Position numbers and translations under genes: made by a program
From: Paracoccus binzhouensis
GTDB lineage: Bacteria > Pseudomonadota > Alphaproteobacteria > Rhodobacterales > Rhodobacteraceae
Direction of reading: 5' to 3'
Assembly (NCBI RefSeq): GCF_016446475.1
Contig: NZ_JAEHFP010000010.1
Span: 1 to 64,000 of the forward strand
Length of the DNA: 64,000 nucleotides
Notes under the pieces: model-generated
Databases searched by the model: none
Seen by the model: the letters and a program-made list of their open reading frames with translations, nothing else
What the model was told of the DNA's origin: nothing
Shown: positions 12,801 to 47,323 of the stretch, in pieces
How the letters are laid out: every line of letters starts with the position of its first letter
How positions within the stretch are numbered: the first letter of the stretch is position 1

Positions 12801-12949
12801 GCGAGGGCGAGGTCGTGCATCTCGTCGCCCATCGGATCGTCGATCTGTCGCGGGATCTGGCGAGCGTCGGACAGCGCGAGATGGCGCCGGCCGGGCAGCA
12901 GGGGCCGGAGGGCGGCGGCATCAGGGTGAAGGCGCGGGATTTCCGGTAG
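9873..12949 (+). pseudogene. dnaE2: dnaE2 (ImuC) error-prone polymerase, frameshifted by deletion
   Basis: The C-family error-prone polymerase DnaE2/ImuC starts at the ATG overlapping imuB. It has the PHP domain ([17 protein letters not shown]) and the polymerase palm with [11 protein letters not shown]. The first frame reads correctly to GFYAP at residue 760 (12152) and then turns into Arg/Ser/Pro-rich nonsense ending at 12458. The correct sequence resumes in another frame at 12155 ([20 protein letters not shown]) and runs to 12949 with the OB fold. The normal segment between these points, roughly 35-50 residues carrying the conserved AQIV...RP...WD region, is absent. This is therefore a deletion of about 100-150 bases that is not a multiple of three. 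The first-frame product would lack the distal C-terminal region, including the OB fold. Confidence 0.85.
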
Positions 12950-31092: not shown

Positions 31093-31221
31093 CTTCCCTG
31101 CTCGCAGGAAAGCCGTCACCCGCCCCGGCCGCTGTCGCCGAATCGATTCGGAAGCGTTGAGCCAGGACGCACGCAAAGCCGGGCTCAGGATCTGCGATTT
31201 CAGATAGAAGATCGGAGCAGA

Positions 31222-31238
31222 ACGACTATTATAGTCGT
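31222..31238 (+). promoter_or_regulatory. Palindromic operator upstream of XRE regulator
   Basis: ACGACTAT (31222-31229), T, ATAGTCGT (31231-31238) is a perfect 8-1-8 palindrome, flanked by CAGAAC and GTTCTG that extend the symmetry with a slight offset. It lies 42 bases before the start of the small HTH gene in an AT-rich patch. It is a likely binding site of that HTH protein. Confidence 0.7.
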
Positions 31239-31265
31239 AGTTCTGGAATGCGCGCCGGTCGCGAT

Positions 31266-31293
31266 GGGAGGTGATCATGCATGATCACCTCCC
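31266..31293 (+). promoter_or_regulatory. 28-bp perfect palindrome covering a start codon
   Basis: GGGAGGTGATCATG (31266-31279) is followed directly by its exact reverse complement CATGATCACCTCCC (31280-31293), a perfect 28-bp palindrome. It includes both the Shine-Dalgarno-like GGGAGG and the ATG (31281) of the HTH gene. It can act as a DNA operator, and on RNA it would hide the ribosome-binding site and start codon in a hairpin. Confidence 0.75.
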
Positions 31294-31532
31294 GACAGTC
31301 GCGGGCCGCACGCGCGTTACTGGGTTGGACACAGGAGACGCTCGCAGATAAGGCCCGTGTATCATTGACAGCGCTAAAGCGCCTCGAATCCGAAAACCGG
31401 CTCGAGGTTTATGAGACTACGCGCGATCAGGTTCGCCGGGCTCTTGAAGCGGCTGGAATAGTTCTCCTGTCGACCGAACGCGGACAGGGAGTGCTGCTTG
31501 TTCATGATCGCGACGAGAAAGGACGCCGGTAA
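31281..31532 (+). CDS. Small XRE-type HTH regulator (QseC-like)
   Basis: An 83-aa Cro/CI-type helix-turn-helix protein: SRAARALLGWTQETLADKARVSLTALKRLESENRLEVYE is the HTH (about residues 7-46), followed by a helix (TRDQVRRALEAAGIVLLSTERGQG). In ICEMlSym(R7A) a small HTH repressor, QseC, sits beside qseM and binds two nearby operators; here the next gene is a DUF2285 protein and two palindromes lie at the start, one over the ATG. By that context I call it QseC-like. The start codon is inside the second palindrome, and TTG or ATG alternatives nearby would not change the domain. Confidence 0.75.
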   Translation: MITSRQSRAARALLGWTQETLADKARVSLTALKRLESENRLEVYETTRDQVRRALEAAGIVLLSTERGQGVLLVHDRDEKGRR

Positions 31533-31643
31533 AGGGTCGGGGAATACTTGGCCCGCGCGAGCGCGTCTTTCGCCGTCAGCTACAACCTGTGACCGCTCGC
31601 GAGCCATTCACCCAACGGCTATTTTGTCCCTGGAGCGGCCGGT

Positions 31644-31919
31644 ATGTCCTCGATGATCGAACCATTCGAGGATGATGCTCCCGATGTCGAGGAACTGACG
31701 GCCTACGACCGGACGCACATCAAGCTTTACATGCGGCTCCTGGACGCCGCCGCCGACGGTGCCGAGTGGACCGAAGCGGTGGAAGTCCTGTTCGGGATTG
31801 ACCCTCTCCTAGAGCCGGCGCGCGCGCGCCGCGTCCATGACAGCCATCTGGCGCGAGCGAGATGGATGACCCGAACCGGATATCGCCACCTCCTGTGGCA
31901 ATCCGCGCCCCGGCACTGA
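31644..31919 (+). CDS. Stand-alone DUF2285 protein (QseM-like antiactivator)
   Basis: A 91-aa protein comprising one DUF2285 domain: LTAYDRTHIKLYMRLLDAAADG, AVEVLFGID and the closing helix RWMTRTGYRHLL. The pattern parallels the C-terminal domain of the FseA-like protein downstream (VTPYQRRRMRQMMQAADG, IAMFGS, GYRRLL). In ICEMlSym(R7A) the single-domain DUF2285 protein QseM binds FseA and TraR and keeps transfer off. Its place between a QseC-like repressor and the fseA-like gene supports the same role. The acidic N-terminus (EPFEDDAPDVEE) is unusual and may serve the protein contact. Confidence 0.72.
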   Translation: MSSMIEPFEDDAPDVEELTAYDRTHIKLYMRLLDAAADGAEWTEAVEVLFGIDPLLEPARARRVHDSHLARARWMTRTGYRHLLWQSAPRH

Positions 31920-31940
31920 CCCGTGAGGCGGGGCCGTGAA

Positions 31941-31961
31941 GCGATGCCAAACCGGCATCGC
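31941..31961 (+). promoter_or_regulatory. Inverted repeat upstream of fseA-like gene
   Basis: GCGATGCC (31941-31948), five bases, GGCATCGC (31954-31961): a perfect 8-bp inverted repeat between the QseM-like and FseA-like genes, 87 bases before the latter's start. It may be an operator or a weak terminator (no T-run). It does not resemble a tra box. Confidence 0.5.
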
Positions 31962-32048
31962 TCAATGCCATCCCTCGATCTTCCCGCATGCGGATGATGC
32001 TGGAATCGTTGAACAACTCGACCGTTCCGACAGAGCGAGGAGGGGAGG

Positions 32049-32805
32049 ATGCGACCAGACACATCCCAGTGGAGCGAAAGTGATCGTTACGAGTTCTACG
32101 ACAGCCTCTCGGTCGAGGGCCTTGCCTGGGAATGCCTGCGCCGCTCCGAACCTTATCAGGAGCATTTCGCAGAACTCGCCGCCATGAATGCGGAGACAAA
32201 CCCCTACACCGATGACGCCCAGCATCTATGGGGGTTGCGATTTCCCGGCGCGACCGAGCCTTTCCATGCTCGAACAACAGGTCGTTTGGTCGCCGCTCGT
32301 CAATCCGGCCGTTCTGCTCATCGACACCGCGCCGTCGTTCCTGCCGTCACCGCCTCCGCTCGCGCCTGCTGACGGCCGCGAAGGCCCGGAGGGCCTGTAC
32401 GCGATTCACGAGGCCTATACCGACGCGCAACTCCTCTATCTGACCGGCTGCGACGTCGGCAGCCCATCCTCCATCGTTCTGCCCCTCGACAGCGATCTAC
32501 CCGACCGACTTCAGGCCGTTCTCCGTCTATGGCATGCCGCAAACGCAGGGCCAGTCCCGCACGACGCGCGCGTGACACCCTATCAGCGACGGCGGATGCG
32601 ACAGATGATGCAGGCGGCCGATGGCCGCAGCAACGGCGCCACCTACCGGGAAATCGCGATTGCCATGTTCGGTTCCGAGCGCATCGCCTCGGAGCCCTGG
32701 CGAACATCCGCGCTCCGCGACACGGTCATCGGACTGATCGAAAGCGCCACCGCCCTGATCGAAGGCGGCTACCGCAGGCTGCTCCGGCACAAGCGCAAGG
32801 CCTGA
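32049..32805 (+). CDS. fseA: FseA-like transfer activator made by +1 frameshift
   Basis: Two overlapping frames together encode one protein. The first, ATG 32049, reads DRYEFYDSLSVEGLAWECLRRSEPY (DUF6499-like) to LWGLRFPG. The second, one base ahead, continues FPARPSLSMLEQQVVWSPLVNPAVLLIDTAP and ends in a DUF2285 domain (VTPYQRRRMRQMMQAADG to GYRRLLRHKRKA) at 32805. The frames meet at CGA TTT CCC (32238-32246); a +1 slip of the Phe tRNA from TTT to TTC gives ...LRFPARPSL..., a natural join. In ICEMlSym(R7A), msi172-msi171 are joined by a +1 programmed frameshift to give FseA, activator of rdfS and transfer. Here rdfS-like follows directly. Unshifted translation would stop at 32372. Confidence 0.8.
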
Positions 32806-32944
32806 ATCCGCCGCTCTGCCCGGGGGGTGGGGATTCTTCGCCCCCAATCTTCCCCATCCACCCCGCCGATCTTTCTCCGCCACCGTGGTCGCAAATCGCC
32901 GCTGGTCCTCTGCGGCGTCCCGCAACCCCACGGAGGCTCGATCC

Positions 32945-33226
32945 ATGCATCCCGATCCCGCCGTTCTGCCGCCGCGCTACCTACGCACGAAAGAGGCGGC
33001 TGCATTTCTCAGCCTGTCCGCCAGGACACTCGAGAAACACCGCACCTACGGTACTGGTCCCGCCTATCACAAGCTCGGCGGGCGCGTCGTCTATTCCGTC
33101 GATGATCTCAAAGCCTGGGCCGACCGCGGCGCGGTGACCTCCACCACCGATCCGCGCGGCCAGCTGGTTCCGCCCAAGCGGCAGATGCCGCCGGCCTCAC
33201 CGCGGGCGGTTCGCTCCGCCCGCTGA
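32945..33226 (+). CDS. rdfS: RdfS-like excisionase / MerR-type HTH protein
   Basis: A 93-aa protein with an HTH_17 (MerR/excisionase-type) winged helix: RYLRTKEAAAFLSLSARTLEKHRTYGTGPAYHKLGGRVVYSVDDLKAWADRG (about residues 11-62), then a basic Pro/Arg tail. In ICEMlSym(R7A) the matching protein RdfS is the recombination directionality factor that drives excision by IntS and is also needed for transfer genes. It starts 140 bases after the fseA-like gene, the expected FseA-controlled promoter position, and overlaps repA by one base. The integrase it would partner is not in the window. Confidence 0.8.
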   Translation: MHPDPAVLPPRYLRTKEAAAFLSLSARTLEKHRTYGTGPAYHKLGGRVVYSVDDLKAWADRGAVTSTTDPRGQLVPPKRQMPPASPRAVRSAR

Positions 33227-34386
33227 TGACAGGACGGCGTCGAACCCTGTCGGAGCGCGGGCAGCTCGATCTGTTCAGAGCGCTTCCGGGAGATTTCGCG
33301 CCACGAGACGCGCAGGATCTCATGGCCTATCCCTTCTTCTCCCTTTCAAAGTCCCATCGCGTTGCGCCGATCGACTTCAGCGCGGGAGCCGTCTCGATCC
33401 GCGTCGAGGCGGTCCCCGATCACGGGATGGCGACCATCTGGGACGCCGACATCCTGATCTGGGCCGCGAGCCAGATCGTGGAGGCACGCGATGCCGGACT
33501 GCGAACCTCGCGGCTCATGATGGCGACGCCCTACGAGATTCTCACCTTCATCGGCCGCGGCACCAGCCTGCGAGACTACCGGCGCCTGAAGGCCGCACTG
33601 GACCGGCTGCAATCCACAACGATATCGACCACGCTGCGTCAGACGGCCAAAGGACGCCGCCACCGCTTCTCCTGGATCAACGAGTGGCAGGAGCGAACCA
33701 ACCGCAACGGCCGACCCGACGGCGTCGAGATGATCGTCCCGGACTGGTTCTACCAGGCCGTCCTCGACGATGCGCTCATCCTCACGATCGACAGGGCCTA
33801 TTTCGATTTGACGGGCGGACTCGAACGCTGGCTCTACCGTCTCGTCCGCAAGCATGGCGGCCGGCAGAAGGACGGCTGGCGCTTCGACTTCCGCCACCTT
33901 CACCAGAAATCGGGCAGTCTGTCGCCGTTCAAGCGCTTCGCCTTCGAGCTGCGCGACATCATTCGGCGCCAGCCGCTCCCCGGCTACACGCTGTTCACCG
34001 AGATCGAACACGGCGGCCGGATGTTGCTGGCCTTCGAGCGCAGCCCAGCCTGTGGAAAACCTGTGGATGGCCTCGTGCCATCGGGAACCCGGACTACCGT
34101 GCTATCGGGAACCCGGGGCTCGTGCTATCGGGAACCCAAACAGGGCGTAACGCACGGAAATCGCGTCGAAAATCGCGCCCTTAACTTAGAGTCTAACAAA
34201 GAATCTAACTTTGAAGAGCGCAGACGCGATGTGCAAAAGCTCATCGTGAAGGTCGGCAATGCGCTGAAAGTGACGTCCGGCGACAAGCGCCAGACGCTGG
34301 ATCGGAACGCCTCCGCCGACACTCCCGCAGCCCGTCAGCGCACCCCCACGACGTCTTCCGGCGATCGCTCCGGAGGCGCGTCATGA
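33226..34386 (+). CDS. repA: Replication initiator protein A
   Basis: A 386-aa RepA family initiator. Core features: DLMAYPFFSLSKSHRVAPIDF, DADILIWAASQIVEA, SRLMMATPYEILTFIGRGTSLRDYRRLKAALDRLQST and LYRLVRKHGGRQKDGWRFDFRHLHQKSGSLSPFKRFAFELRDI (winged-helix DNA-binding part). The domain ends near residue 280; the last 100 residues are low-complexity because the coding region there contains iteron-like repeats (three 17-mers) and an AT-rich patch. Such initiators in ICEs support replication of the excised circle. It overlaps parA by four bases. Confidence 0.88.
   Translation: MTGRRRTLSERGQLDLFRALPGDFAPRDAQDLMAYPFFSLSKSHRVAPIDFSAGAVSIRVEAVPDHGMATIWDADILIWAASQIVEARDAGLRTSRLMMATPYEILTFIGRGTSLRDYRRLKAALDRLQSTTISTTLRQTAKGRRHRFSWINEWQERTNRNGRPDGVEMIVPDWFYQAVLDDALILTIDRAYFDLTGGLERWLYRLVRKHGGRQKDGWRFDFRHLHQKSGSLSPFKRFAFELRDIIRRQPLPGYTLFTEIEHGGRMLLAFERSPACGKPVDGLVPSGTRTTVLSGTRGSCYREPKQGVTHGNRVENRALNLESNKESNFEERRRDVQKLIVKVGNALKVTSGDKRQTLDRNASADTPAARQRTPTTSSGDRSGGAS
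34051..34225 (+). other. Candidate origin of replication (oriV) within repA
   Basis: Two DnaA-box-like words (TGTGGAAAA at 34051-34059, TGTGGATGG at 34062-34070) come first. Then follow three near-identical 17-mers, CGTGC(C/T)ATCGGGAACCC, at 34074-34090, 34098-34114 and 34121-34137. After about 45 bases comes an AT-rich patch (about 34178-34215) with the near-repeat AGTCTAAC / AATCTAAC. DnaA boxes, iterons and an AT-rich unwinding element in this order are the usual parts of an iteron origin. The iteron spacing (24, then 23) breaks the codon phase, so the repeats are not just repeated peptide. Confidence 0.7.
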
Positions 34387-35036
34387 TCCTCGCCTTGCTC
34401 AATCAGAAGGGCGGCGTCGGGAAGACGACGCTGGCGCTCGCCATTGCGGGCGAATGGGCCATGCAAGGACGGCGGGTCATCCTCATCGACGCCGACCCGC
34501 AAGGCTCGGCGCTCGATTGGTCCGAGATGCGCGCTCGCGAGGGGTTGCCGCGCCTGTTCAGCGTGATCGGTCTCGCCCGAGACACACTGCATCGCGAAGC
34601 CCCCGCGCTTGCCAGGGATGCCGATCTCGTCGTCATCGATGGGCCGCCGCGTGTGGCCGGACTCATGCGCTCGGCGCTGCTGGCAACGGACATGGTGCTG
34701 ATCCCGGTGCAGCCGTCGCCCTTCGACGGCTGGGCGTCTGCGGAAATGCTGGCGCTGATCTCGGAGGCGCGCATCTACCGGCCGGAACTGGTGGCCCGCT
34801 TCGTCCTGAACCGATGCGGGGCGCGCACTGTGCTGGCGCGAGATACGGCCGAAATGCTCGCGGATCATGACCCACCGGCCCTGGCCAGTCGCATCGGTCA
34901 GCGCATTGCTTTCGCCGCCGCTGCGCAGTCCGGACGGATCGTCCGGGAACTCGACCATGAGAGCGCGGCCGCGCGCGAAATCTCGGCGCTGACGGCCGAG
35001 GTGGCGCATCTCGGCAGTCCCCGGAGCGCATCATGA
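34383..35036 (+). CDS. parA: ParA-family partition ATPase
   Basis: A 217-aa ParA/MinD-type ATPase with a deviant Walker A at the very start (MILALLNQKGGVGKTTLALAIAG), Walker A' LIDADPQGSALDW and Walker B DLVVIDGPPR. The short N-terminus without HTH matches the ParA/VirC1-like form that sits beside repA in ICEs and plasmids; it could stabilise the excised element or help relaxosome assembly. It overlaps repA and the next RHH gene by four bases each, so the three are translationally coupled. Confidence 0.9.
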   Translation: MILALLNQKGGVGKTTLALAIAGEWAMQGRRVILIDADPQGSALDWSEMRAREGLPRLFSVIGLARDTLHREAPALARDADLVVIDGPPRVAGLMRSALLATDMVLIPVQPSPFDGWASAEMLALISEARIYRPELVARFVLNRCGARTVLARDTAEMLADHDPPALASRIGQRIAFAAAAQSGRIVRELDHESAAAREISALTAEVAHLGSPRSAS

Positions 35037-35281: not shown

Positions 35282-35787
35282 CCCCAAGCACGACACACAG
35301 TCAGGCTCGCTCTGCGCACATGGCCGACCGGTTCACTCGTGTTGAGCTGATCTGGGTCGAGAAGTCGGTCGAACACTGGATCAGGTTCGGCATGGCTGTG
35401 CGTGAGGAGATCCTGGACCGCCGCCGGCGTGTCCTTACTTTCCGGCCGAGCTCCAGTTTCGCGCTCGTTCGCTGGGCCGCCAACGAGCATGGGACCATCG
35501 AGTCCCGGCTCGACATCCTGCGCACCCCGCGAGCGGGTGAAGCCTATCAGACCGTGCCGCTCGTCGATCCCGGCGGTGTCCTTCTCCTGCGAACCCATGG
35601 CTGGCCCAAGGTTGAACGTACCCTTCAGATCATCGACGCGATCGAAGCGGCGGGTATCGATGCGGTGGAGGTTTCGCCCGATCACTGGCGGCACGTCCAC
35701 AACCGGCTGGCCGCCGGCGAGCGGCCGCGTCCCTATGCGCCAGCCCAGCACCGCGCCTGGCTGAAACGGCGGAGCGTCCAGCCATGA
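35278..35787 (+). CDS. DUF2840 protein
   Basis: A 169-aa DUF2840 protein: DRFTRVELIWVEKSVEHWIRFG, VLTFRPSSSFALVRWAANEHGT, SRLDILR, then GGVLLLRTHGWPKVERTLQIIDAIEAAGIDAVEVSPDHWRHVHNRLAAGE. DUF2840 genes are nearly always found just before traF in this transfer family, and the function is unknown. A second Met 14 codons in (MADRFTR) is a likely alternative start; the first is coupled to the preceding gene. It overlaps traF by four bases. Confidence 0.85.
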   Translation: MTPSTTHSQARSAHMADRFTRVELIWVEKSVEHWIRFGMAVREEILDRRRRVLTFRPSSSFALVRWAANEHGTIESRLDILRTPRAGEAYQTVPLVDPGGVLLLRTHGWPKVERTLQIIDAIEAAGIDAVEVSPDHWRHVHNRLAAGERPRPYAPAQHRAWLKRRSVQP

Positions 35788-36329
35788 GCCGCCGCGCCAT
35801 TGTCTGGGCCATGGCGACGGCGGGCGCGCTGATCGTCGCGCCGCATCTGACCGGCCACGGTCCCCGCTTCATCTGGAATGCCTCGGCCAGCGCGCCGATC
35901 GGCCTCTATTCCGTTCGCCCTGTGGGGCGGCTCGAGGTCGGCGATCTTGTCGCGGTGATGCCACCGGACGATCTCTCGGGCTTCCTCGACGCCCGCGGCT
36001 ATCTCCCGCGCGGCGTTCCCCTGATCAAGCGCGTTCTGGCGCTCCCCGGCACGCAAGTGTGCCGGAATGGCGCTCAGATCACGGCTTACGATCACGCCTA
36101 TGGCGAAGCCCGCGAACGCGACAGCCGGGGCCGCCAACTGCCTTCCTGGCAGGGCTGCCGGGTGATCTCCAATGGCGAAGTGTTCCTGATGAACTGGGAC
36201 ACCGAAGACAGCATGGACGGCCGGTATTTCGGGCCGCTCCCCCTCGCATCCGTCACTGCGCGCGTCGTGCCGATCTGGATCGACGGGAGCGGCGACGGCC
36301 GCCTCGAACGGCAGGCGTCAACGCGGTGA
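35784..36329 (+). CDS. traF: TraF, S26-family conjugation peptidase
   Basis: A 181-aa signal-peptidase-like (S26) protein. An N-terminal membrane helix (AIVWAMATAGALIVAPHL) is followed by ASAPIGLYSVRP with the catalytic Ser of the SxPxGLY motif, and PLIKRVLALPGTQV with the general-base Lys. TraF processes the TrbC pilin into its cyclic form, so it belongs to the mating-pair system downstream even though it is 6 kb away. EVFLMNWDTEDSMDGRYFGPLP is the usual C-terminal block. Confidence 0.9.
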   Translation: MSRRAIVWAMATAGALIVAPHLTGHGPRFIWNASASAPIGLYSVRPVGRLEVGDLVAVMPPDDLSGFLDARGYLPRGVPLIKRVLALPGTQVCRNGAQITAYDHAYGEARERDSRGRQLPSWQGCRVISNGEVFLMNWDTEDSMDGRYFGPLPLASVTARVVPIWIDGSGDGRLERQASTR

Positions 36330-36739: not shown

Positions 36740-37495
36740 ATGCCCCAGCTTCGCTTCCGGCGCCGCCAGGGTCATGCGTTCGGGCGGCTTCGCGTCGCCC
36801 GGCGCACTGTCTCACTTCTCCTTCTCGGCCTGTCGATCCCGTTCGCGTCTGTTGGACTGGCGCAGGTCTCGGCCGCACCCGCGGCTCAGGCCATTCTGCG
36901 CGATCCGAACGCCCAGTATGTCGCGGAAGCCTCGCTCCGCTTCGGCATTCCGGAGCACTGGATCCGCGCGGTGATGCGCGTCGAAAGCGCGGGCGATCTG
37001 CGGGCGGTGTCATCGGCCGGCGCGATGGGCCTGATGCAGATCATGCCCGACACCTGGGCCGGGCTGCGCTTGCGGCACCGGCTCGGCCGTGACCCCTTCG
37101 ATCGTCGCGACAATATTCTCGCGGGTGCGGCTTACTTGCGCGAGATGTTCGATCGCTACGGCAATATCGCGGCCATGCTGGCGGCTTATAATGCCGGACC
37201 GGGTCGCTACGACGAATACCTTTCCGACGGTCGCAATCTGCCCGCAGAGACGCGCGCCTATGTCGCGACCCTCGCGCCGATCTTGGGTGCGGATGGGCCG
37301 CCCGGCACGGCTTCTGTCACGCCCGCACCGCCGCCCGATTGGCGCGAGGCGCCGCTCTTCGTGGCGCGGGCCGGGAACCGCGATACTGCGCCCGATACGC
37401 AGCCGCAAAGCACCCGCGCTCTCGTTCCGGGAGCAGATCAGGGCGCTGCGGAAGGCATTTTCGTTGCCGCTCAAGTCACGGGTGATGCGCCATGA
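36740..37495 (+). CDS. Lytic transglycosylase (VirB1/TrbN-like)
   Basis: A 251-aa SLT-domain protein. The signal peptide is VSLLLLGLSIPFASVGLAQ (cleavage near AQA). The SLT domain (about residues 65-175) shows HWIRAVMRVESAGDLRAVSSAGAMGLMQIMPDTW with catalytic Glu in VES, and MLAAYNAGPGRYDEYL. It locally cuts peptidoglycan to let the Trb channel cross the wall. The C-terminal third is Pro/Ala-rich and likely disordered. It is the last gene before the candidate oriT. Confidence 0.9.
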   Translation: MPQLRFRRRQGHAFGRLRVARRTVSLLLLGLSIPFASVGLAQVSAAPAAQAILRDPNAQYVAEASLRFGIPEHWIRAVMRVESAGDLRAVSSAGAMGLMQIMPDTWAGLRLRHRLGRDPFDRRDNILAGAAYLREMFDRYGNIAAMLAAYNAGPGRYDEYLSDGRNLPAETRAYVATLAPILGADGPPGTASVTPAPPPDWREAPLFVARAGNRDTAPDTQPQSTRALVPGADQGAAEGIFVAAQVTGDAP

Positions 37496-37597
37496 CCGGC
37501 CGAACGCTCCATCGTGCTCTGGCGAGCATTTGCGCATCATGGAGGGCGAAGGGGTCGGGTGCGGGCACCACGACCGGACGATGGCAGGATAAAAGGC

Positions 37598-37730
37598 CGC
37601 ACATTGTGGGCCGGGCGGTCGGTTGTTTTTATTGGGTTTTCCAGCGCGTTTCACACATTGCGGCGTCTCAGCGCAATGTGCCGGAACTGTTTACCTGCCC
37701 GGAATTGCTCGGCTTTTCGCACATTGTGGG
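37598..37730. other. Candidate origin of transfer (oriT) repeats
   Basis: The 243-base gap upstream of the relaxase holds two exact copies of CGCACATTGTGGG (37598-37610 and 37718-37730), 120 bases apart. Between them is a perfect 9-bp inverted repeat, CACATTGCG (37654-37662) / CGCAATGTG (37672-37680). All four share CACATTG(T/C)G. Repeats framing a hairpin just before a relaxase gene are typical of oriT. The nic site is not identified. Confidence 0.65.
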
Positions 37731-37738
37731 GCAGGGCC

Positions 37739-39478
37739 ATGGCCGGTGAGCGCGAGTTTCGCATCCGCCCTGGCCGCATCCGCTCGACACGGGCACAGCA
37801 TGTGCGTCCCTTCATCGCCCAGGCACTCGCGGCGGCCAAGAAGGCCGGGGGAACGGTGTCGCGCACCGGTCGCGTTACTTCCGGGGACCGCTCGCGCTTC
37901 GGGCATGGGCAGCGGGCCAGCATTCTGGCCAATCGATTCATCACCGCCCGGTCGCGGGGCGCCGTGGTCAAGGCGCGCGTCGTGCGCCATGCCGGTCGCG
38001 CCGCGCCCCTGGGCACGCATCTCGATTACCTGAGCCGCGACGGCGTGACCCGGGACGGGGAGAAGGCTCGTCTGTTCGGGCCGGAGACGGAGGCTGCCGA
38101 CGGGCGGTCCTTCGCCGAGCGCTGCGGCGATGATCGACATCACTTCCGCTTCATCGTCTCACCCGACGACGCGCTCGAGATGTCGGATCTCAAATCCTTC
38201 ACGCGCGATCTCGTCGGGCAGATGGAAAAGGACCTCGGCACGCGTCTCGATTGGGTGGCCGTCGATCATTGGAACACCGAGCATCCCCATGTCCATCTGA
38301 TCGTCCGCGGCGTTCGCGACGACGGGCAGGACCTCGTGATCTCACGCGACTATATCAAGGAAGGGATGCGCGACCGGGCGCGCGATCTCATCACCATGGA
38401 ATTGGGGCCGCGCACCGATCACGACATCCGGCGCGCCCTCGAACGGCAGATCGAGGCGGAGCGCTGGACCCAACTCGACCGCCAACTCGTCCGTGATGCC
38501 CGCGATGTTGGTGCGATCGACCTGGCGCCGCATCCCGAACGCCAGCCAGATGAATACCAGGCCCTTAAAATCGGGCGGCTCCGGAAGCTGGAATCGCTCG
38601 GCCTCGCCGAGCAGGTCGGCCCCGGGCAATGGTCGATCAGCCAGGATGCCGAGGCAACGCTGCGCCAATTGGGAGAGCGCGGTGACATTATCAAGCGCAT
38701 GCACCGGGCTCTGACCGAGAAGGGGATCGAGCGTGGCGCCGCAGGTTATGTGCTTGCCGCCGAGAGTCTCGATACCCCGGTCATCGGCCGGCTGGTCGAG
38801 CGTGGGCTCGATGACGAGCTGAAAGGGACTGCCTATGCGGTGGTCGATGGCGTCGATGGCCGAACCCATCACATCAAGCTGCCCGATCTTGATGCCGCGG
38901 GTGACAGCGCTCCCGGATCGATCGTCGAGCTTCGCAGCTTCGACGATGCGAGAGGGCAGCGCCGCGTGGCGATCGCCGTCCGCTCCGATCTCGACCTGCA
39001 AGGCCAGATCTCGGCGTCCGGCGCGACCTGGCTGGACCGGCAGGCCGTCGCGCGCGAGCGGATCGATGTTTCCTCCGGTGGCTTCGGCGCCGAGGTTCGC
39101 GAAGCGATGGATTGCCGCGCCGAGCGCCTTCTGCAGGAAGGGCTGGCGGAGCGTCAGGGGCGACGCATCGTCTTCAGCCGCAACCTGATCGACACGCTGC
39201 GGCGCCGCGAACTCGACGCGCTCGGCGGCAAGCTGGCGGATGAGACCGGCCTGCCTTTCAACCGGGCCGCCGGCGGCGAATATGTCTCCGGCACCTACCG
39301 GCAGCGACTGGCGCTGGCATCCGGCCGCTTCGCCATGATCGACGACGGCCTCGGCTTCCAGCTCGTGCCCTGGTCCCCTTCGCTCGAGAAGAATCTCGGC
39401 CGCCACGTCTCGGGCGTCGCGCGGGGCGATGGCGGCATCGACTGGAGTTTCGGCCGCAAACGGGGCCTCGGGCTCTGA
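37739..39478 (+). CDS. rlxS: Relaxase RlxS (VirD2-like with DUF3363)
   Basis: A 579-aa relaxase/mobilisation protein with a C-terminal DUF3363 domain. The N-terminal domain has HLDYLSRDGVTRDG and the metal-binding histidine motif EHPHVHLIVRGV (about residue 181), which with an N-terminal Tyr (YLSRDG region) should nick at oriT. The DUF3363 part runs from about 300 (GIERGAAGYVLAAESLDTPVIGRLVERG to the end). Same family as RlxS of ICEMlSym(R7A). The start was taken at ATG 37739 just after the second 13-base repeat; the candidate oriT is immediately upstream. Confidence 0.88.
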   Translation: MAGEREFRIRPGRIRSTRAQHVRPFIAQALAAAKKAGGTVSRTGRVTSGDRSRFGHGQRASILANRFITARSRGAVVKARVVRHAGRAAPLGTHLDYLSRDGVTRDGEKARLFGPETEAADGRSFAERCGDDRHHFRFIVSPDDALEMSDLKSFTRDLVGQMEKDLGTRLDWVAVDHWNTEHPHVHLIVRGVRDDGQDLVISRDYIKEGMRDRARDLITMELGPRTDHDIRRALERQIEAERWTQLDRQLVRDARDVGAIDLAPHPERQPDEYQALKIGRLRKLESLGLAEQVGPGQWSISQDAEATLRQLGERGDIIKRMHRALTEKGIERGAAGYVLAAESLDTPVIGRLVERGLDDELKGTAYAVVDGVDGRTHHIKLPDLDAAGDSAPGSIVELRSFDDARGQRRVAIAVRSDLDLQGQISASGATWLDRQAVARERIDVSSGGFGAEVREAMDCRAERLLQEGLAERQGRRIVFSRNLIDTLRRRELDALGGKLADETGLPFNRAAGGEYVSGTYRQRLALASGRFAMIDDGLGFQLVPWSPSLEKNLGRHVSGVARGDGGIDWSFGRKRGLGL

Positions 39479-39499: not shown

Positions 39500-41485
39500 A
39501 TGTCCGCGACGAAAATTCTCTGGGGCCAGATCATCACCGTCTTTCTGATCGTCCTCGTCACGACATGGACGGCGACACAATACGTGGCATGGGAGCTTGG
39601 GTTTCAGGCGCAGCTCGGGTCGCCATGGTTCCGGGTCGGCGGTTGGCCGGTCTATTATCCGCCCGCGATCTTCTGGTGGTGGTATTTCTATGAAGCTTAT
39701 GCGCCGGGTATCTTTGCCACGGGTGGGATGATCGCGGCATCGGGCGGATTCATCGCCATTGCCGTCGCGATTGGTATGTCGGTCTGGCGAGCGCGGGAAG
39801 CACGGAACGCGGAAACCTATGGTTCCGCCCGATGGGCGCGACCCGATGAAGTCAAGGCCGCGGGACTCCTCGATCCCGATGGCGTCGTGCTCGGGCGCTT
39901 CGATCGCGCCTATCTTCGTCACGACGGGCCGGAGCATGTCCTGTGTTTCGCGCCGACACGGTCTGGCAAAGGCGTCGGCCTGGTGGTGCCCACGCTCCTG
40001 ACCTGGCCAGGGTCGGCGATCGTCCATGACATCAAGGGTGAGAACTGGCAGCTCACAGCGGGCTTTCGCGCCCGGCACGGCAGGGTGCTTCTGTTCGATC
40101 CGACCAATCCGGATTCGTCGGCCTATAATCCGCTGCTCGAGGTTCGGCGCGGTGAATGGGAGGTCCGCGACGTCCAGAACATCGCCGACATCCTGGTCGA
40201 TCCCGAAGGCAGTCTTGAGCGGCGCAATCACTGGGAAAAGACCAGTCATGCCTTGCTGGTCGGGGCCATCCTGCATGTCCTTTACGCCGAACCCGACAAG
40301 ACCCTTGCTGGCGTGGCCTCGTTCCTGTCCGACCCCAGGCGCACGATCGAAGCGACACTCGATGCGATGATGAAGACCGCGCATCTCGGTGAAGGCGGCC
40401 CGCATCCTGTCATTGCAAGCGCAGCGCGCGAACTCCTGAACAAATCCGACAATGAGCGCTCGGGCGTGCTCTCCACCGCCATGTCGTTCCTCGGTCTCTA
40501 TCGCGATCCCGTCGTCGCCGAGGTGACGCGCCGCTGTGACTGGCGCATCGCCGACCTGGTGGCGGGCGAAATGCCCACGACGCTCTACCTCGTCGTGCCG
40601 CCGTCCGACATCAATAGGACGAAGCCCCTTGTCCGCCTCATCCTCAATCAGGTCGGGCGCCGTCTGACCGAAGATTTGCAGACCGAGGCAGGTCGGCACC
40701 GGCTCCTGCTCATGCTCGACGAGTTTCCTGCTCTCGGTCGGCTCGACTTCTTCGAGAGCGCCCTGGCCTTCATGGCGGGCTACGGTCTCAAGAGCTTCCT
40801 GATCGCCCAGTCTCTGAACCAGATCGAGAAAGCCTACGGCCCGAACAATTCGATACTCGACAATTGCCATGTGCGCGTGAGCTTCGCCACCAACGACGAG
40901 CGAACAGCCAAGCGCGTGTCCGATGCGCTCGGCACGGCCACCGAAATGAAGGCAATGAAGAACTATGCCGGCCACAGGCTTTCGCCCTGGCTCGGGCACC
41001 TGATGGTCTCCCGCTCCGAGACGGCGCGCCAGTTGCTCACGCCCGGTGAAATCATGCAGCTTCCGCCCTCCGACGAGATAGTCATGCTGGCAGGCACCCC
41101 GCCGATCCGCGCGAAGAAGGCCCGCTATTTCGAGGATGTGCGCTTCAAGGAGCGTGTCCTCGCTCCCCCGGAAATGGTCCGATCCGACAATCCACAGTCC
41201 GACGACTGGAGCGCCTTGCCGGTGCCGCTGCGTCCGCTGTTCGATACGGCCACGAAGACGTCCGGCGATCCGGATGAAGATCCGACCGGCTCCGAGCGCC
41301 GGCATCAGCCGGAGTTGAGCCACGCCAATCCGATCGAGAAGAGGAAGCCAATCGAGAACGAGTTCGATCCACCTGATGAGGACGGTGAGGACGATGCAAC
41401 CCGCAGCCGGCGCCTCACGCAGGTGATGGGGCTGAACGTGGCGCGTCAGGTGAGCATGGATCCCGGTGACGGGATGGACCTCTGA
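39500..41485 (+). CDS. traG: TraG/VirD4 coupling protein
   Basis: A 661-aa type IV coupling ATPase that links relaxosome to the transfer channel. Two N-terminal membrane helices (IITVFLIVLVTTWTA; MIAASGGFIAIAVAIGMSV), then Walker A FAPTRSGKGVGLVVPTLL (about 150) and Walker B LLLMLDEFPALGRLD (about 405), and the RAKKARYFED block near the end. The C-terminal 80 residues are acidic and Pro-rich. Full length for the family. It overlaps the next gene by one base (TGATG). Confidence 0.93.
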   Translation: MSATKILWGQIITVFLIVLVTTWTATQYVAWELGFQAQLGSPWFRVGGWPVYYPPAIFWWWYFYEAYAPGIFATGGMIAASGGFIAIAVAIGMSVWRAREARNAETYGSARWARPDEVKAAGLLDPDGVVLGRFDRAYLRHDGPEHVLCFAPTRSGKGVGLVVPTLLTWPGSAIVHDIKGENWQLTAGFRARHGRVLLFDPTNPDSSAYNPLLEVRRGEWEVRDVQNIADILVDPEGSLERRNHWEKTSHALLVGAILHVLYAEPDKTLAGVASFLSDPRRTIEATLDAMMKTAHLGEGGPHPVIASAARELLNKSDNERSGVLSTAMSFLGLYRDPVVAEVTRRCDWRIADLVAGEMPTTLYLVVPPSDINRTKPLVRLILNQVGRRLTEDLQTEAGRHRLLLMLDEFPALGRLDFFESALAFMAGYGLKSFLIAQSLNQIEKAYGPNNSILDNCHVRVSFATNDERTAKRVSDALGTATEMKAMKNYAGHRLSPWLGHLMVSRSETARQLLTPGEIMQLPPSDEIVMLAGTPPIRAKKARYFEDVRFKERVLAPPEMVRSDNPQSDDWSALPVPLRPLFDTATKTSGDPDEDPTGSERRHQPELSHANPIEKRKPIENEFDPPDEDGEDDATRSRRLTQVMGLNVARQVSMDPGDGMDL

Positions 41486-42094: not shown

Positions 42095-43075
42095 ATGGCG
42101 GCTTCACATAACAATCCAGAAGGACGCGCGCGCAGTTCGCGCATGCTGCGCACCGCGCTCGGAGCCGCCATCGCCCGCTTTCTGGACGACCCTGCGGTCG
42201 TCGAGGTCATGCTCAATCCCGATGGCCGCATCTGGGTGGACCGGTTGTCCGAGGGCCTTGGCGATACAGGGGAGATTCTGCCCGCAGCCGATGGTGAACG
42301 CATCGTGCGGCTCGTCGCCCATCATGTCGGTGCCGAGGTGCATGCCGGGGCGCCGCGGGTTTCCGCCGAGCTGCCGGAGACCGGCGAACGCTTCGAAGGC
42401 TTGCTGCCGCCTGTCGTCGCCGCGCCTGCCTTCGCCATCCGCAAGCCAGCGGTCGCGGTGTTCACGCTCGACGACTATGTCGCTGCCGGCATCATGACAC
42501 CCGAACAGAGCGCGACATTGCGCGAGGCCGTGGCGGCGCGCGCCAATATTCTCGTCGCGGGCGGCACTTCGACTGGCAAGACGACCCTGACCAACGCTCT
42601 TCTTGCCGAGGTGTCCAACAGCTCGGACCGCGTCGTCATCATCGAGGACACGCGCGAGTTGCAATGCGCCGCGCCCAACCTCGTCGCCATGCGCACGAAA
42701 GACGGCGTGGCGACTCTCTCCGACCTCGTCCGTTCCTCTCTGCGGCTTCGCCCGGACCGCATCCCCGTTGGCGAGGTGCGCGGCGCCGAAGCGCTCGACC
42801 TGCTCAAGGCCTGGGGGACGGGACATCCGGGCGGCATCGGCACGATCCATGCCGGCTCCGGCATCGGCGCGCTGCGCCGCCTCGAACAACTCATCCAGGA
42901 AGCCGTCATCACCGTGCCGCGCGCCCTGATCGCCGAGACGATCGATCTGGTCGCCGTCCTCGCCGGGCGCGGGTCCGCGCGAAGGCTTGTCGAACTCGCG
43001 CGCGTCGATGGGCTCGGTCCTGACGGCGACTACCGCATCACCCCCGCAACCAGTTCAGAAGGGAAGCCCGAATGA
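42095..43075 (+). CDS. trbB: TrbB, conjugation ATPase
   Basis: A 326-aa VirB11-like traffic ATPase. Walker A is [17 protein letters not shown] (about 152-168), the Asp box [10 protein letters not shown], the Walker B / His box region [36 protein letters not shown]. It powers pilus assembly and substrate passage at the inner membrane. First gene of the mating-pair cluster; its stop overlaps trbC by four bases. ATG 42095 was chosen as the start of good coding sequence, shortly after the palindrome. Confidence 0.94.
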
Positions 43076-43404
43076 TCCGTCACGCCTTGCGCATTCGCCG
43101 TCACATCGCGACAGCCGCGGCCGTCACCTATGTCAGCCTGTTCATGGCCCCGGCCGCGCATGCGTCCGGTTCATCCATGCCCTGGGAGGCCCCGCTCCAG
43201 AGCATTCTCGAATCGATCGAGGGACCGGTCGCGAAGATCATCGCCGTCATCATCATCATCGTCACCGGCCTTACGCTGGCCTTCGGCGACACCTCCGGCG
43301 GCTTCCGACGGCTGATCCAGATCGTCTTCGGCATCTCCATCGCCTTCGCTGCATCCAGCTTCTTTCTGTCCTTTTTCTCGTTTGGCGGCGGAGCGCTCAT
43401 CTGA
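43072..43404 (+). CDS. trbC: TrbC, prepilin
   Basis: A 110-aa pilin precursor. A long signal peptide (HIATAAAVTYVSLFMAPAAHA, cleavage after HA-S) is followed by MPWEAPLQSILESIEGPVAKIIAVIIIIVTGLTLAFGDTSGG and a second hydrophobic helix (ISIAFAASSFFLSFFSFG). Two hydrophobic segments around a short polar turn are the VirB2/TrbC pattern. TraF (35784) is the expected maturation protease. It overlaps trbB and trbD. Confidence 0.92.
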   Translation: MIRHALRIRRHIATAAAVTYVSLFMAPAAHASGSSMPWEAPLQSILESIEGPVAKIIAVIIIIVTGLTLAFGDTSGGFRRLIQIVFGISIAFAASSFFLSFFSFGGGALI

Positions 43405-43685
43405 TGGCGGCTGTTCTCGAACAGCTCGATGCCGTGCCGGGCTTCACCATCCCGGTTCACAGGGCGCTGACCGAACACATCCTGCTGGGCGGCGCTCCCC
43501 GTTCCATTGCGATCCTGAATGGAACGCTCGCCGGGGCGGTGGGCCTCGGCCTGCGCCTCTGGCTGGTCGGTCTGGCGATCTGGGCGGTGGGACATTTCGT
43601 GGCGGTTTGGGCGGCAAAACGCGACCCGCTCTTCGTCGAAGTCGGCCGCCGGCATCTGCGTATCCCGGCTTTCCTGGCGGTGTGA
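43404..43685 (+). CDS. trbD: TrbD, VirB3-like protein
   Basis: A 93-aa inner membrane protein. VPGFTIPVHRALTEHILLGGAPRSIAILNGTLAGAVGLGL and the second hydrophobic stretch LVGLAIWAVGHFVAVWAAKRDPLFVEVGRRHLR are typical of VirB3/TrbD, which supports the channel ATPase TrbE. It overlaps trbC by one base and lies 10 bases before trbE. Starts at ATG 43404. Confidence 0.92.
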   Translation: MAAVLEQLDAVPGFTIPVHRALTEHILLGGAPRSIAILNGTLAGAVGLGLRLWLVGLAIWAVGHFVAVWAAKRDPLFVEVGRRHLRIPAFLAV

Positions 43686-43695
43686 GGGCGCGGCG

Positions 43696-46212
43696 ATGAT
43701 GAACCTGGCCGAATACCGCCGCACCGCCACTCGCCTGGCAGACTATTTGCCCTGGGCCGCATTGGCCGGCTCCGGCGTGGTGCTGAACAAGGATGGCAGC
43801 TTCCAGAGAACGGCGAAGTTTCGCGGGCCGGATCTGGATTCGTCGGTCGCCGCCGAACTGGTCGCCGTGGCTGGCCGCATCAACAATGCCCTCCGTCGTC
43901 TCGGCTCCGGCTGGTCGATCTTTGTCGAGGCTCAGCGCAGCGAGGCCGCGACCTATCCCGAAAGCCTGTTTCCCGACCCGGCATCGGCCTTGGTCGACGC
44001 CGAGCGCAGGGCGGCATTCGAGGAGGCCGGCGTGCATTTCGTGTCGGGTTACTTCCTCACATTCCTCTGGCTGCCGCCGGCCGAGGAATCCGCGCGTGCC
44101 GAGACCTGGCTCTATGAGGGCCGCGAGCAATCGGGCGTGAACCCCTGGGAACTGCAGCGCGGCTTCGTGGATCGGACCGACCGCGTTCTGGCCCTACTCG
44201 ACGGCTTCATGCCTGAATGCCGTTGGCTCGATGACCCAGAGACGCTCACCTATCTCCACTCGACGATCTCCACCAACCGGCATCGCGTACGCGTGCCGGA
44301 GGTGCCGATGCATCTCGATGCGCTGCTTGCCGACCAGCCGCTGACCTGCGGGCTGGAGCCGCGCCTCGGCGATCAGCATCTGCGTGTCCTCACCATCATC
44401 GGCTTCCCCACCGCCACGACGCCCGGCCTGCTGGATGAAATGAACCGGCTGGCATTTCCCTATCGCTGGAGCACGCGGGCGATCCTCCTCGACAAGCTCG
44501 CGGCGACAAGGCTGCTCACCAAAATCCGCCGGCAATGGTTTGCCAAGCGAAAGTCGATCGCCGCGATCGTCAAGGAGGTGATGACCAACGAGCAATCCGC
44601 GCTGGTCGACACCGATGCGGCCAACAAGGCCGCCGACGCCGATATGGCCCTGCAGGAACTCGGGCAGGACATGGCGGGCATGGCCTATGTCACGGCCACG
44701 ATCACGGTCTGGGATGCCGATCCGCGCATCGCCGACGAAAAGCTGCGGCTTGCCGAGAAGGTCGTTCAGGGCCGCGACTTCACGGCGATGGCCGAGACTG
44801 TCAATGCCGTCGACGCCTGGCTCGGCTCTCTGCCTGGTCATGCCTATGCCAATGTCCGGCAGCCGCCAATCTCGACGCTCAATCTTGCCCACATGATTCC
44901 CCTGAGTGCTGTGTGGGCGGGGCCGGAACGAAACGACCATCTCGGTGCGCCCCCCTTGTTCTACGGCAAGACCGAGGGAAGTACGCCGTTCCGGCTTTCC
45001 CTCCATATCGGGGATGTCGGCCACACGCTTGTCGTCGGCCCGACCGGCGCGGGCAAATCGGTGTTGCTGGCGCTGATGGCGCTCCAGTTCCGCCGTTACG
45101 CGAGAGCCCAGGTCTTCGCCTTCGACTTCGGCGGCTCCATTCGGGCCGCGGCGCTCGCCATGGGCGGGAACTGGCACGATCTGGGCGGCGGATTGACCGA
45201 AGGGTCGGAGGCCTTGGTGTCGCTGCAACCGCTCGCCCGCATCGACGACGCCTATGAGCGTTCCTGGGCTGCCGAATGGATCGGCGCCATCCTGGCGCGC
45301 GAGGGTGTCGCCGTCACGCCGGAGGTGAAGGAACACATCTGGACGGCACTGTCCTCGCTCGCGTCCGCGCCCCCAGGGGAGCGCACCATCACCGGCCTCG
45401 CCGTGCTGCTGCAATCCAATGACCTCAAACAGGCGCTGCGACCCTATTGTGTCGGCGGTCCCTATGGCCGGTTGCTCGATGCCGAGACCGAGCACCTCGG
45501 CTCTGCCGACGTGCAGGCGTTCGAAATCGAGGGGCTGGTCGGAACGGGGGCGGCGCCTGCGGTCCTGTCCTACCTGTTCCATCGGATCGGCGACCGGCTC
45601 GATGGCCGCCCGACGCTGCTCATCATCGACGAGGGCTGGCTCGCCCTCGACGATGACGGTTTCTCCGGCCAGCTCCGCGAATGGCTGAAAACGCTCCGCA
45701 AGAAGAACGCCTCGGTCATTTTCGCCACGCAGAGCCTGTCGGACATTGATGGCAGCGCGATCGCGCCCGCCATCATCGAGAGCTGCCCGACGCGGCTGCT
45801 CCTGCCGAACGAGCGCGCGATCGAGCCGCAGATCACGGCCATCTATCGCCGCTTCGGTCTCAACGATCGCCAGATCGAGATCCTCGCACGGGCGACACCC
45901 AAGCGGGACTATTACTGCCAGTCGAGACGCGGCAACCGGCTGTTCGAGCTGGGCCTCAGCGAAGTCGGACTCGCGCTCTGCGCCGCGTCTTCCAAATCCG
46001 ATCAGGCCGCCATCGAGCGCGTCCACGCCGAGCATGGGGCCGACGGCTTCCTTGCCGCCTGGCTGCGCCATCGCGGCGTGGACTGGGCCGCCGACCTGAT
46101 CCCCGGCCTCCCCAATCTCGTCCCGGGGCCACCTTCGGGCCCGGAGGATGAGCCGGCACCAGGCATCTCGAGCCAAGCCGGGCCCCAAGACGAATTCTCA
46201 ATCGATGAATAG
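43696..46212 (+). CDS. trbE: TrbE, VirB4-like ATPase
   Basis: An 838-aa VirB4 family ATPase (MMNLAEYRRTATRLADYLPWAALAGSGVVLNKDGSF). The N-terminal CagE_TrbE_VirB domain spans about 180-380; Walker A is LVVGPTGAGKSVLLALMALQF (about 449) and Walker B LIIDEGWLALDD (about 645), followed by FATQSLSDIDGSAI. It energises pilus biogenesis and transfer. The tandem ATG ATG at 43696 fits the family start. Normal length. Confidence 0.94.
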   Translation: MMNLAEYRRTATRLADYLPWAALAGSGVVLNKDGSFQRTAKFRGPDLDSSVAAELVAVAGRINNALRRLGSGWSIFVEAQRSEAATYPESLFPDPASALVDAERRAAFEEAGVHFVSGYFLTFLWLPPAEESARAETWLYEGREQSGVNPWELQRGFVDRTDRVLALLDGFMPECRWLDDPETLTYLHSTISTNRHRVRVPEVPMHLDALLADQPLTCGLEPRLGDQHLRVLTIIGFPTATTPGLLDEMNRLAFPYRWSTRAILLDKLAATRLLTKIRRQWFAKRKSIAAIVKEVMTNEQSALVDTDAANKAADADMALQELGQDMAGMAYVTATITVWDADPRIADEKLRLAEKVVQGRDFTAMAETVNAVDAWLGSLPGHAYANVRQPPISTLNLAHMIPLSAVWAGPERNDHLGAPPLFYGKTEGSTPFRLSLHIGDVGHTLVVGPTGAGKSVLLALMALQFRRYARAQVFAFDFGGSIRAAALAMGGNWHDLGGGLTEGSEALVSLQPLARIDDAYERSWAAEWIGAILAREGVAVTPEVKEHIWTALSSLASAPPGERTITGLAVLLQSNDLKQALRPYCVGGPYGRLLDAETEHLGSADVQAFEIEGLVGTGAAPAVLSYLFHRIGDRLDGRPTLLIIDEGWLALDDDGFSGQLREWLKTLRKKNASVIFATQSLSDIDGSAIAPAIIESCPTRLLLPNERAIEPQITAIYRRFGLNDRQIEILARATPKRDYYCQSRRGNRLFELGLSEVGLALCAASSKSDQAAIERVHAEHGADGFLAAWLRHRGVDWAADLIPGLPNLVPGPPSGPEDEPAPGISSQAGPQDEFSIDE

Positions 46213-46235
46213 TTCAACCAAGAGGAGATCGACCT

Positions 46236-47015
46236 GTGACCTTTCCCAAAATGCACCGTTTCACGCGTGTCTCGCTGCTCGCCCTGGCGCTTGCGACGCC
46301 GCTTGCGCCGGTGCTTACCACACCCGCACACGCCTTTTTCGGCGGGTTCGGCCGCATCGTCTACGATCCGACCAATCATGCCGAAAACCTGCTGACAGCC
46401 GCTCGATCCCTGGAGCAGATCAACAATCAGATCGCCCAGCTTCAGAACGAAGCGCAGATGCTGATCAACCAGGCCCGCAATCTGGCGAGCCTGCCGTTCT
46501 CCTCGCTCCAGCAGCTTCAGCAAAACATCCAGCGCACCCAGCAGCTCTTGAGCCAGGCCCAGAGCATCGCATTCGACGTCCAGCAGATCGACCGGATGTT
46601 CCAGGAGGACTACGGCAAGCTGTCGATCTCGGCCACCGACGCGCAGCTGATCGCCGATGCCCGTTCGCGCTGGGAAAACACCGTGGGCGGGTTGCAGGAC
46701 GCCATGCGCGTCCAGGCCGGCGTGGTCGGCAATATCGACAGCAATCGCAGCGCGATGTCCGCGCTGGTCGATCAGAGCCAGAATGCGGTCGGTGCGCTGC
46801 AAGCGACGCAGGCGGGTAACCAGCTTCTCGCACTGCAATCCCAACAGCTTTCGGACCTCATCGCGGTGATCTCCGCCAATGGCCGCGCCACAGCCATGCT
46901 CGAGGCCGACCGGGCGACAGCCGCCGAACAAGGCCGCATCCAGCGCGAGCGCTTTCTGACACCTGGCTCGGGCTATCAGCCTGGCAATGCGCAGATGTTC
47001 AACCGCGGTAACTGA
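46236..47015 (+). CDS. trbJ: TrbJ, VirB5-like protein
   Basis: A 259-aa periplasmic or pilus-tip protein. Signal peptide: VSLLALALATPLAPVLTTPAHA; then FFGGFGRIVYDPTNHAENLLTAARSLEQINNQIAQLQNEAQMLINQ, a coiled coil typical of TrbJ, continuing as Gln-rich helices (QQLQQNIQRTQQLLSQAQSI). The GTG at 46236 has AGAGGAG upstream; an ATG five codons later is possible. It follows trbE with 23 bases between. Confidence 0.92.
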   Translation: MTFPKMHRFTRVSLLALALATPLAPVLTTPAHAFFGGFGRIVYDPTNHAENLLTAARSLEQINNQIAQLQNEAQMLINQARNLASLPFSSLQQLQQNIQRTQQLLSQAQSIAFDVQQIDRMFQEDYGKLSISATDAQLIADARSRWENTVGGLQDAMRVQAGVVGNIDSNRSAMSALVDQSQNAVGALQATQAGNQLLALQSQQLSDLIAVISANGRATAMLEADRATAAEQGRIQRERFLTPGSGYQPGNAQMFNRGN

Positions 47016-47032
47016 TCCCGGGAGGGTTTCCC

Positions 47033-47320
47033 ATGGATGGGAAAATGCTGGCCCGGATCGGGGCGATCATATTCATCGCCATAGCGATCACCGCCACGGT
47101 GATCGAGATGACCCGGGAAGAGGAACCGGCGCGGGTGAGATCCGCGCCGGAGCTCCAGCCCGAGGCGGATCCTCTGCGCCTGACGCTTCGGCGATGCCAG
47201 CGACTCGGAGAAGCCGCCACCAGCGACGCCGAGTGTCTTTCGGCCTGGGCAGAGTCCCGCGACCGCTTCCTTGGCCGTTCTCCGGCGCCCGCCGCCCCGG
47301 CAGTCGAAGGGGAGCGATGA
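47033..47320 (+). CDS. TrbK-alt type entry exclusion protein
   Basis: A 95-aa small protein with an N-terminal membrane helix (MLARIGAIIFIAIAITATVIEMTREEE) and a short periplasmic tail with two Cys (LRRCQRLGEAATSDAECLSAW). It matches the TrbK-alt family, found between trbJ and trbL in rhizobial and sphingomonad elements and thought to block entry by the same element. The two conserved Cys could form a disulphide or carry a lipid. It is not the classical TrbK lipoprotein. Confidence 0.85.
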   Translation: MDGKMLARIGAIIFIAIAITATVIEMTREEEPARVRSAPELQPEADPLRLTLRRCQRLGEAATSDAECLSAWAESRDRFLGRSPAPAAPAVEGER

Positions 47321-47323
47321 GCC

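Follow-up and report, generated by a model that had tools for sequence, protein, structure and literature searches.

How can two overlapping reading frames, each encoding one domain, yield a single regulatory protein? The question is raised by a locus in a stretch of 64,000 nucleotides (nt) from Paracoccus binzhouensis (RefSeq assembly GCF_016446475.1, contig NZ_JAEHFP010000010.1, positions 1 to 64,000), the whole of which is called the window here. On its plus strand, a frame-0 open reading frame (ORF) of 107 amino acids (32049-32372) carries a DUF6499 domain (PF20109, 63.5 bits), and DUF2285 (PF10074, 126.3 bits) is encoded by an ORF in the +1 frame whose stop codon lies at 32803-32805. We consider it very probable, from the sequence and from the analogy with published systems, that both frames belong to one gene, fseA, the activator gene of a conjugative element resembling the integrative and conjugative element (ICE) ICEMlSym(R7A), and that this gene is expressed by a +1 programmed ribosomal frameshift. 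In R7A, FseA is made by a +1 frameshift joining msi172 and msi171 (PMC10359603), as restated elsewhere (PMC5009743, PMC5882170, PMC11963761). The window locus is, as judged from its sequence, a well-supported ordinary member of the FseA family, and the mechanism itself has already been described in rhizobia.

The ATG at 32049 is immediately preceded by a Shine-Dalgarno-like (SD-like) stretch, GAGGGGAGG (32040-32048, plus strand), read in the sequence. DUF6499 occupies 32067-32246, with AWECLRRS as the counterpart of the AWEFLRRN-like family motif, and frame 0 then runs on to 32372 as a tail of unconserved length. The two frames meet at TGG GGG TTG CGA TTT CCC (32229-32246), a predicted +1 frameshift site made of an SD-like TGGGGG followed by CGA, TTT and CCC (32238-32246) as candidate E-, P- and A-site codons. 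Reading TTTC (32241-32244) as a single phenylalanine gives a 251-residue protein with no internal stop, in which LRF is joined to PARPSL; the part after the putative slip (32245-32805) comprises a middle domain and DUF2285 (32476-32787). The +1 frame is already open upstream of the slip, the ORF listing giving it as 32188-32805. A preliminary description of this DNA had placed the junction at 32238-32246 and assigned the protein to FseA. The coordinates of the frames and of the junction proved correct when ORFs and domains were checked again, and the assignment is borne out by DUF6499 in frame 0, DUF2285 in the +1 frame and homologues of QseM and RdfS alongside.

The site was compared across 343 loci, gathered by profile searches of this genome and of samples drawn from the family, class and phylum to which it belongs and from three other families, together with fetched regions, a scan of named genomes (479 confirmed relatives matching one DUF6499 pattern, of which the best 80 were retained), three plasmid records (from 32 matches) and a few pattern and control loci. 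Sixty regions were chosen among matches without a locus, long open frames being favoured in order to obtain in-frame copies; with in-frame copies deliberately sought, the set is neither a prevalence estimate nor an unbiased census. Removal of 26 duplicates and of 23 loci without both domains left 294 distinct pairs for counting, in which DUF2285 lies in the +1 frame in 213 (hereafter split copies), in frame with DUF6499 in 77 (75 of them without a stop between the domains) and at an offset of +2 in four. The split copies share ancestry, so that their counts are not independent and are given without a P value. A quick FastTree tree, midpoint-rooted for counting clades, covers 281 of the 294 proteins.

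Conservation of the site is far beyond chance. TTT followed by C (196 copies) or T (10 copies) stands exactly 12 nt, or four codons, after TGG in 206 of the 213 split homologues; of the remaining seven, three have TTTC one codon later, one has TGTC and three are without a located WG motif. At the site TTT is the phenylalanine codon in 206 of 206 genes, against only 341 of 1343 phenylalanine codons outside the site in the same genes. The bias extends to the preceding codons: CGA stands in the E-site position of 148 split copies, or 148 of the 159 arginine codons found there (547 of 5823 arginine codons elsewhere in these genes), and GGG is the glycine codon in 159 of 203 (460 of 3244 elsewhere). 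The A-site codon is CCC in 101 of the 206 copies and CGC in 77. The 55 in-frame copies with a WG motif, serving as a control, have phenylalanine at the slip codon in 18 cases (13 TTC, 5 TTT), and CGA makes up two of their 20 arginine codons at the site. SD-like pairing at the site, computed on a smaller first set, averages -8.4 kcal/mol in 129 split copies and is weaker, at -5.9 kcal/mol, in 22 in-frame ones. A coupling between the A-site CCC and the E-site CGA was considered but is not supported: CGA accompanies CCC in 85 of 101 copies and CGC in 46 of 77, yet 15 independent pairs give 0.4 against 0.4. Within the literature searched, the codon census (TTT in 206/206, CGA in 148/159 arginine codons) is new; the codon points may already stand in the original 2015 FseA paper.

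Purifying selection acts on both halves of the protein, in the frame proper to each. Against one of the nearest relatives (L128), nonsynonymous and synonymous rates (dN/dS) are 0.007/0.081 for the N-terminal part and 0.022/0.125 for the C-terminal part; against another (L066) they are 0.168/1.459 and 0.26/1.517, with dS near saturation. Most substitutions before the site hit third codon positions of frame 0, and most of those after it hit third positions of the +1 frame. Among 18 sequences hand-picked from the split set, allowing a single switch of frame gives a better fit than either frame alone in 15 of 15 comparisons; with the three nearest relatives taken together, the log-likelihood (lnL) is -379.9 for one switch and -401.1 and -395.3 for the single frames. 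In all 15, the TTT falls among the switch points whose lnL is within 2 of the best, an interval that ranges in width from 25 nt (L142) to 91 nt (the three nearest relatives together).

The arrangement is also stable among near relatives. The site is unchanged in near copies from Celeribacter (723 of 757 bases identical), Chelativorans (726/757), Parvibaculum (723/757) and plasmid pPAN3 of P. pantotrophus (723/757), the Celeribacter and pPAN3 copies being identical to each other in the fseA-type gene. On the tree, the 105 homologues nearest to the window protein are all split and the first in-frame one is the 106th of 280; the preliminary description had named in-frame fusion in close relatives as the sign of a recent mutation. 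Its further statements, that the slip is in the +1 direction from TTT to TTC and that the two frames are not a product of decay, are sustained by the census and by the selection on both halves, respectively. Within the P. binzhouensis genome, five loci encode DUF6499, on contigs that we label C2 (the window), C93, C192, C205 and C216, and all have DUF2285 in the +1 frame with TTT-C or TTT-T at the site. A QseM-like ORF lies upstream on the same strand at four of them, C216 having instead a lone DUF2285 on the opposite strand about 1.5 kb away; the order qseM-fseA-rdfS is found at two of the five.

Three other readings of the two frames have to be weighed. The best of them, which we nevertheless regard as very unlikely, is that two separate proteins are made, the downstream ORF being translated either through coupled re-initiation or from a start of its own, such as ATG 32188 or 32267, and that the halves then associate. 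ATG codons do exist in the +1 frame of the window both before and after the slip, although no SD-like sequence was seen by eye in front of them, and a possible start codon falls within the usable stretch in 148 of the 206 split copies. In the other 58, there is no ATG, GTG or TTG from the opening of the +1 frame to 20 codons past the slip, and 125 of the 206 have no ATG. In 129 copies, frame 0 continues past the slip for anything from 3 to 237 codons before its stop, so that the tail length is unconserved. Missing downstream starts and a variable frame-0 tail speak against independent translation as a general rule, as does the invariance of TTT at the site, where TTC would encode the same residue in frame 0. 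For a homologous pair of Azorhizobium, frameshifting has been argued to be absent, as start and stop codons are present for both parts (PMC9601964); judged in this way, many copies of the present set would count as frameshift-free.

Less probable still is that the frame changes by transcriptional slippage, within the GGGGG run at 32230-32234, and not at TTT on the ribosome. The frame-change intervals of 25 to 91 nt include the G run in most comparisons, but five G are short for transcriptional slippage, and 47 of the 206 split copies have a shorter or interrupted run (GGC, GGT, GGA or AGG as the codon at the glycine position), whereas TTT is unaltered in all 206. Scarcely any weight is left to a recent frameshift mutation, a sequencing error or a pseudogene, a reading for which odd copies in assemblies could be invoked (the four pairs offset by +2; one copy, L286, in frame through one G fewer) but which sequence conservation refutes: offset and site are identical in the four near copies of four genera and in the 105 nearest homologues of 280, all five loci of this genome share the offset with TTT-C or TTT-T, and dN/dS is well below 1 for both halves.

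Under programmed frameshifting, translation would start at 32049 and DUF6499 would be made first. While CGA occupies the E site and TTT the P site, tRNA-Phe would move from UUU to the better-paired UUC, and DUF2285 would then be read in the +1 frame; without a slip, ribosomes would terminate at 32372. The few full-length proteins would then bind an inverted repeat at 32829-32855 and activate rdfS and the transfer genes behind it, and the neighbouring QseM-like protein would restrain any leak by binding DUF6499. The slip, its low rate, the binding to DNA and the gating of transfer are carried over from published work on R7A. We ourselves infer that CGA may be conserved as a weak codon in the E site, its pairing being a weak inosine-adenine wobble. 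The strength of E-site pairing is inversely correlated with +1 slipping at the site of the release factor 2 (RF2) gene (PMC6321510). The G-rich stretch has been suggested as a possible cause of a ribosomal stall that allows QseM to bind DUF6499 while it is being made (PMC10359603).

Several points weigh against this reading. No report of frameshifting in this element was found in print. Between the SD-like stretch and the slip codon there are 6 nt (GGGGG-TTGCGA-TTT), against 3 nt in prfB, the RF2 gene, which makes a stimulatory role uncertain. A downstream RNA structure acting as stimulator is unsupported (mean z -0.20 over 129 copies, -1.42 in the window), so that it offers no explanation for a ribosomal pause. 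On the tree, the in-frame copies fall into 16 separate clades; some elements would thus do without the frameshift. Finally, an RdfS-like gene is present downstream only at C2 and C93 among the five loci of this genome, with none within 1.5 kb at C192, C205 and C216; the target is therefore not always adjacent.

The closest known system is FseA of ICEMlSym(R7A) in Mesorhizobium japonicum, which likewise has DUF6499 in frame 0, DUF2285 in the +1 frame and a frameshift site beside WGL encoded with UGGGGG, and whose partner QseM has a homologue next to the window gene; the UGGGGG at WGL, the FseA box and antiactivation by QseM are already published, and the frameshift site is conserved across alpha-, beta- and gammaproteobacteria, with about 61% of 4709 homologues needing the frameshift (PMC10359603). 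The fseA gene is said to occur on all ICEs of 41 complete Mesorhizobium genomes (PMC8627217). The window locus itself was not found in print, the literature on FseA and Paracoccus yielding only a paper on Azorhizobium. In R7A and WSM1271, fseA belongs to a traI2-msi172-msi171 operon under TraR (PMC5882170), whereas in the window it sits directly between qseM-like and rdfS-like genes, and the traI of the R7A system was not found in the window. A distant relative of FseA is RovC of Yersinia (PDB 6xz5), which has a similar predicted fold and activates a type VI secretion system (PMC10359603); the DUF2285 part of the window protein matches it weakly in sequence (E 0.03).

With respect to the slip itself, prfB resembles the window site in having an in-frame upstream SD-like sequence and, as predicted for the window, a P-site +1 slip (PMC6321510). 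For the PA-X site of influenza A virus, UCC_UUU_CGU of the proposed UUU_C class, a move of tRNA-Phe from UUU to UUC is likewise argued; C is again the next base, and codons in the E and A sites matter there, CGN being preferred in the A site (PMC3498833). The fseA-type site differs from PA-X in being bacterial, in its upstream SD-like stretch and in having CGA as its usual E-site codon. We tentatively suggest, as a possibility that is rather less than even, that the fseA site represents a distinct class of bacterial +1 signal requiring neither a stop codon nor structured RNA, in which UUU-Y and an E-site CGA would be combined with an SD-like stretch which, loosely spaced at 6 nt, would make the ribosome pause without pushing it, and that single-base insertions and deletions, by adding or removing this signal, let conjugative elements tune their transfer.

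On the tree of 281 proteins, the state changes 16 times between split and in-frame, the direction of change not being readable; elements would thus repeatedly enter or leave frameshift control. Some in-frame copies hold remnants of the site, L300 and L307 retaining CGA TTT CC in frame. L286, around TGGGGTTGCGATTTCCC on the minus strand, is a lone in-frame copy among split ones on the tree, with a G run one G shorter; it may reflect a real loss of the frameshift or an assembly error, the assembly being a single contig, 86% complete.

One possible consequence of the idea of a ribosomal stall during which QseM is bound (PMC10359603) is that the frameshift should be tied to an adjacent qseM, and this link was examined for that reason. 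A QseM-like ORF was found upstream of 113 of 133 split and 0 of 33 in-frame copies in a first sample, of 115 of 134 and 3 of 34 when a profile and both strands were used, and of 181 of 213 and 22 of 77 in the larger sample. Ten phylogenetically independent pairs, however, give on average 2.2 in the same direction against 1.7 in the opposite one and show no association, although with so few pairs a weak link is possible; the tie was rejected. The repeated conversion between split and in-frame states (16 changes) and the rejected link are also new within the literature searched.

The surroundings of fseA are those of a conjugative element; the genes given here with coordinates are on the plus strand. 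Upstream lie a small HTH_3 regulator (31281-31532; PF01381, 25.3 bits for a cut-off of 23; no PDB match at E 0.1), which from its position and domain may be a counterpart of QseC, and a QseM-like putative antiactivator with a lone DUF2285 (31644-31919; PF10074, 31.6 bits), which matches PDB 7uqt with E 5.6e-21 over 77 residues. This entry, 'Quorum sensing master protein', is the QseM entry of PMC10359603. Genes for ArdC, a ParB-domain protein, Toprim and DUF736 also lie upstream. Downstream of fseA are an RdfS-like recombination directionality factor (HTH_17, 32945-33226; PF12728; PDB 8dgl RdfS, E 1.8e-8), a RepA-like replication initiator (33226-34386; PF10134), a ParA-like ATPase (34383-35036), a TraF-like S26 signal peptidase (35784-36329; PF10502), an SLT transglycosylase that is Msi107-like by its position (36740-37495; PF01464), a RlxS-type relaxase (37514-39478; PF11843/PF03432; NF041267 604 bits, E 3.9e-181, under the curated cut-off of 850) and a TraG-type coupling protein (39500-41485; PF02534). 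The mating-pair genes follow (42095-51538), with TrbJ, TrbL, TrbI and a CagE/TrbE-family protein recognised by family name and TrbB, TrbF and TrbG proposed from membership in broad families (T2SSE, VirB8, CagX) and from gene order. By these predicted functions the element is of the trb-type conjugative kind, the trb genes, TraG, RlxS relaxase, TraF and RdfS of an ICEMlSym(R7A)-like ICE being present. No tyrosine integrase was found on the window contig, none of the genome's seven Phage_integrase places lying on it (73,847 bases, in a 270-contig assembly), serine recombinases and att sites not having been searched. Nor did the window show the quorum-sensing input known from R7A: the only LuxI-type match of the genome lies on contig C230, with LuxR not searched. 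Promoter and terminator scans of 31200-33000 found nothing.

The candidate target of FseA is an FseA-box-like inverted repeat upstream of the rdfS-like gene, GGGGAT (32829-32834) and TTCCCC (32850-32855) around a 15-nt spacer. The repeat of the R7A rdfS promoter, through which rdfS is activated, has a spacer of 15/16 bp (PMC10359603); the right arm of the window repeat begins 95 nt upstream of the called rdfS start, against 62-67 nt in the published logo. Sequence search finds an RdfS homologue downstream in 99 of 131 split loci, and the repeat was scored in the 93 of the 134 split loci of the first set that have a recognisable rdfS start. The best repeat lies at -118 to -112 in 65 of these 93, and its arms agree at 4.71 of 6 positions against 3.25 when shuffled (24 distinct arm pairs), a statistic biased by the selection of arms on their symmetry score. 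Half-sites differ in L020, L021, L030, L033, L166 and L202 (TGACGA, TGACGT, TGCGAT, GGACAC, GGGAAA and TGAGGA), mostly altered alike in both arms. Within the P. binzhouensis genome, the C2 repeat (GGGGAT/TTCCCC) and the C93 repeat (GGCGAT/TTCGCC) differ from each other in a symmetrical manner, a difference that could prevent cross-activation between co-resident elements.

Other genes of the window were noted in passing. A TetR-family regulator lies at 51781-52401, and behind the trb genes the minus strand carries components of the Hma anti-phage system (53766-63917), which PADLOC identifies as HmaC (950.7 bits), HmaB (1221.1) and HmaA (1607.3). Towards the start of the window, a DNA polymerase III alpha-type gene is split over two overlapping ORFs on the plus strand, with PHP, NTPase and finger domains at 9576-12458 and HHH and OB domains in another frame at 12086-12949; a frameshift mutation or another case of recoding are both possible. 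It is preceded by an impB/mucB-family ORF (8353-9876).

In the biology of these elements, the frameshift would act as one brake among others, so that in most cells a conjugative element, in this case carrying Hma-type anti-phage genes, stays silent. The varied half-sites upstream of rdfS offer material for a recognition code of DUF2285. More than 200 natural variants of one bacterial +1 site, with in-frame relatives for control, tell the nearly indispensable TTT-Y and the preferred CGA and GGG from codons that are free, and the mechanism of this frameshift becomes directly testable.
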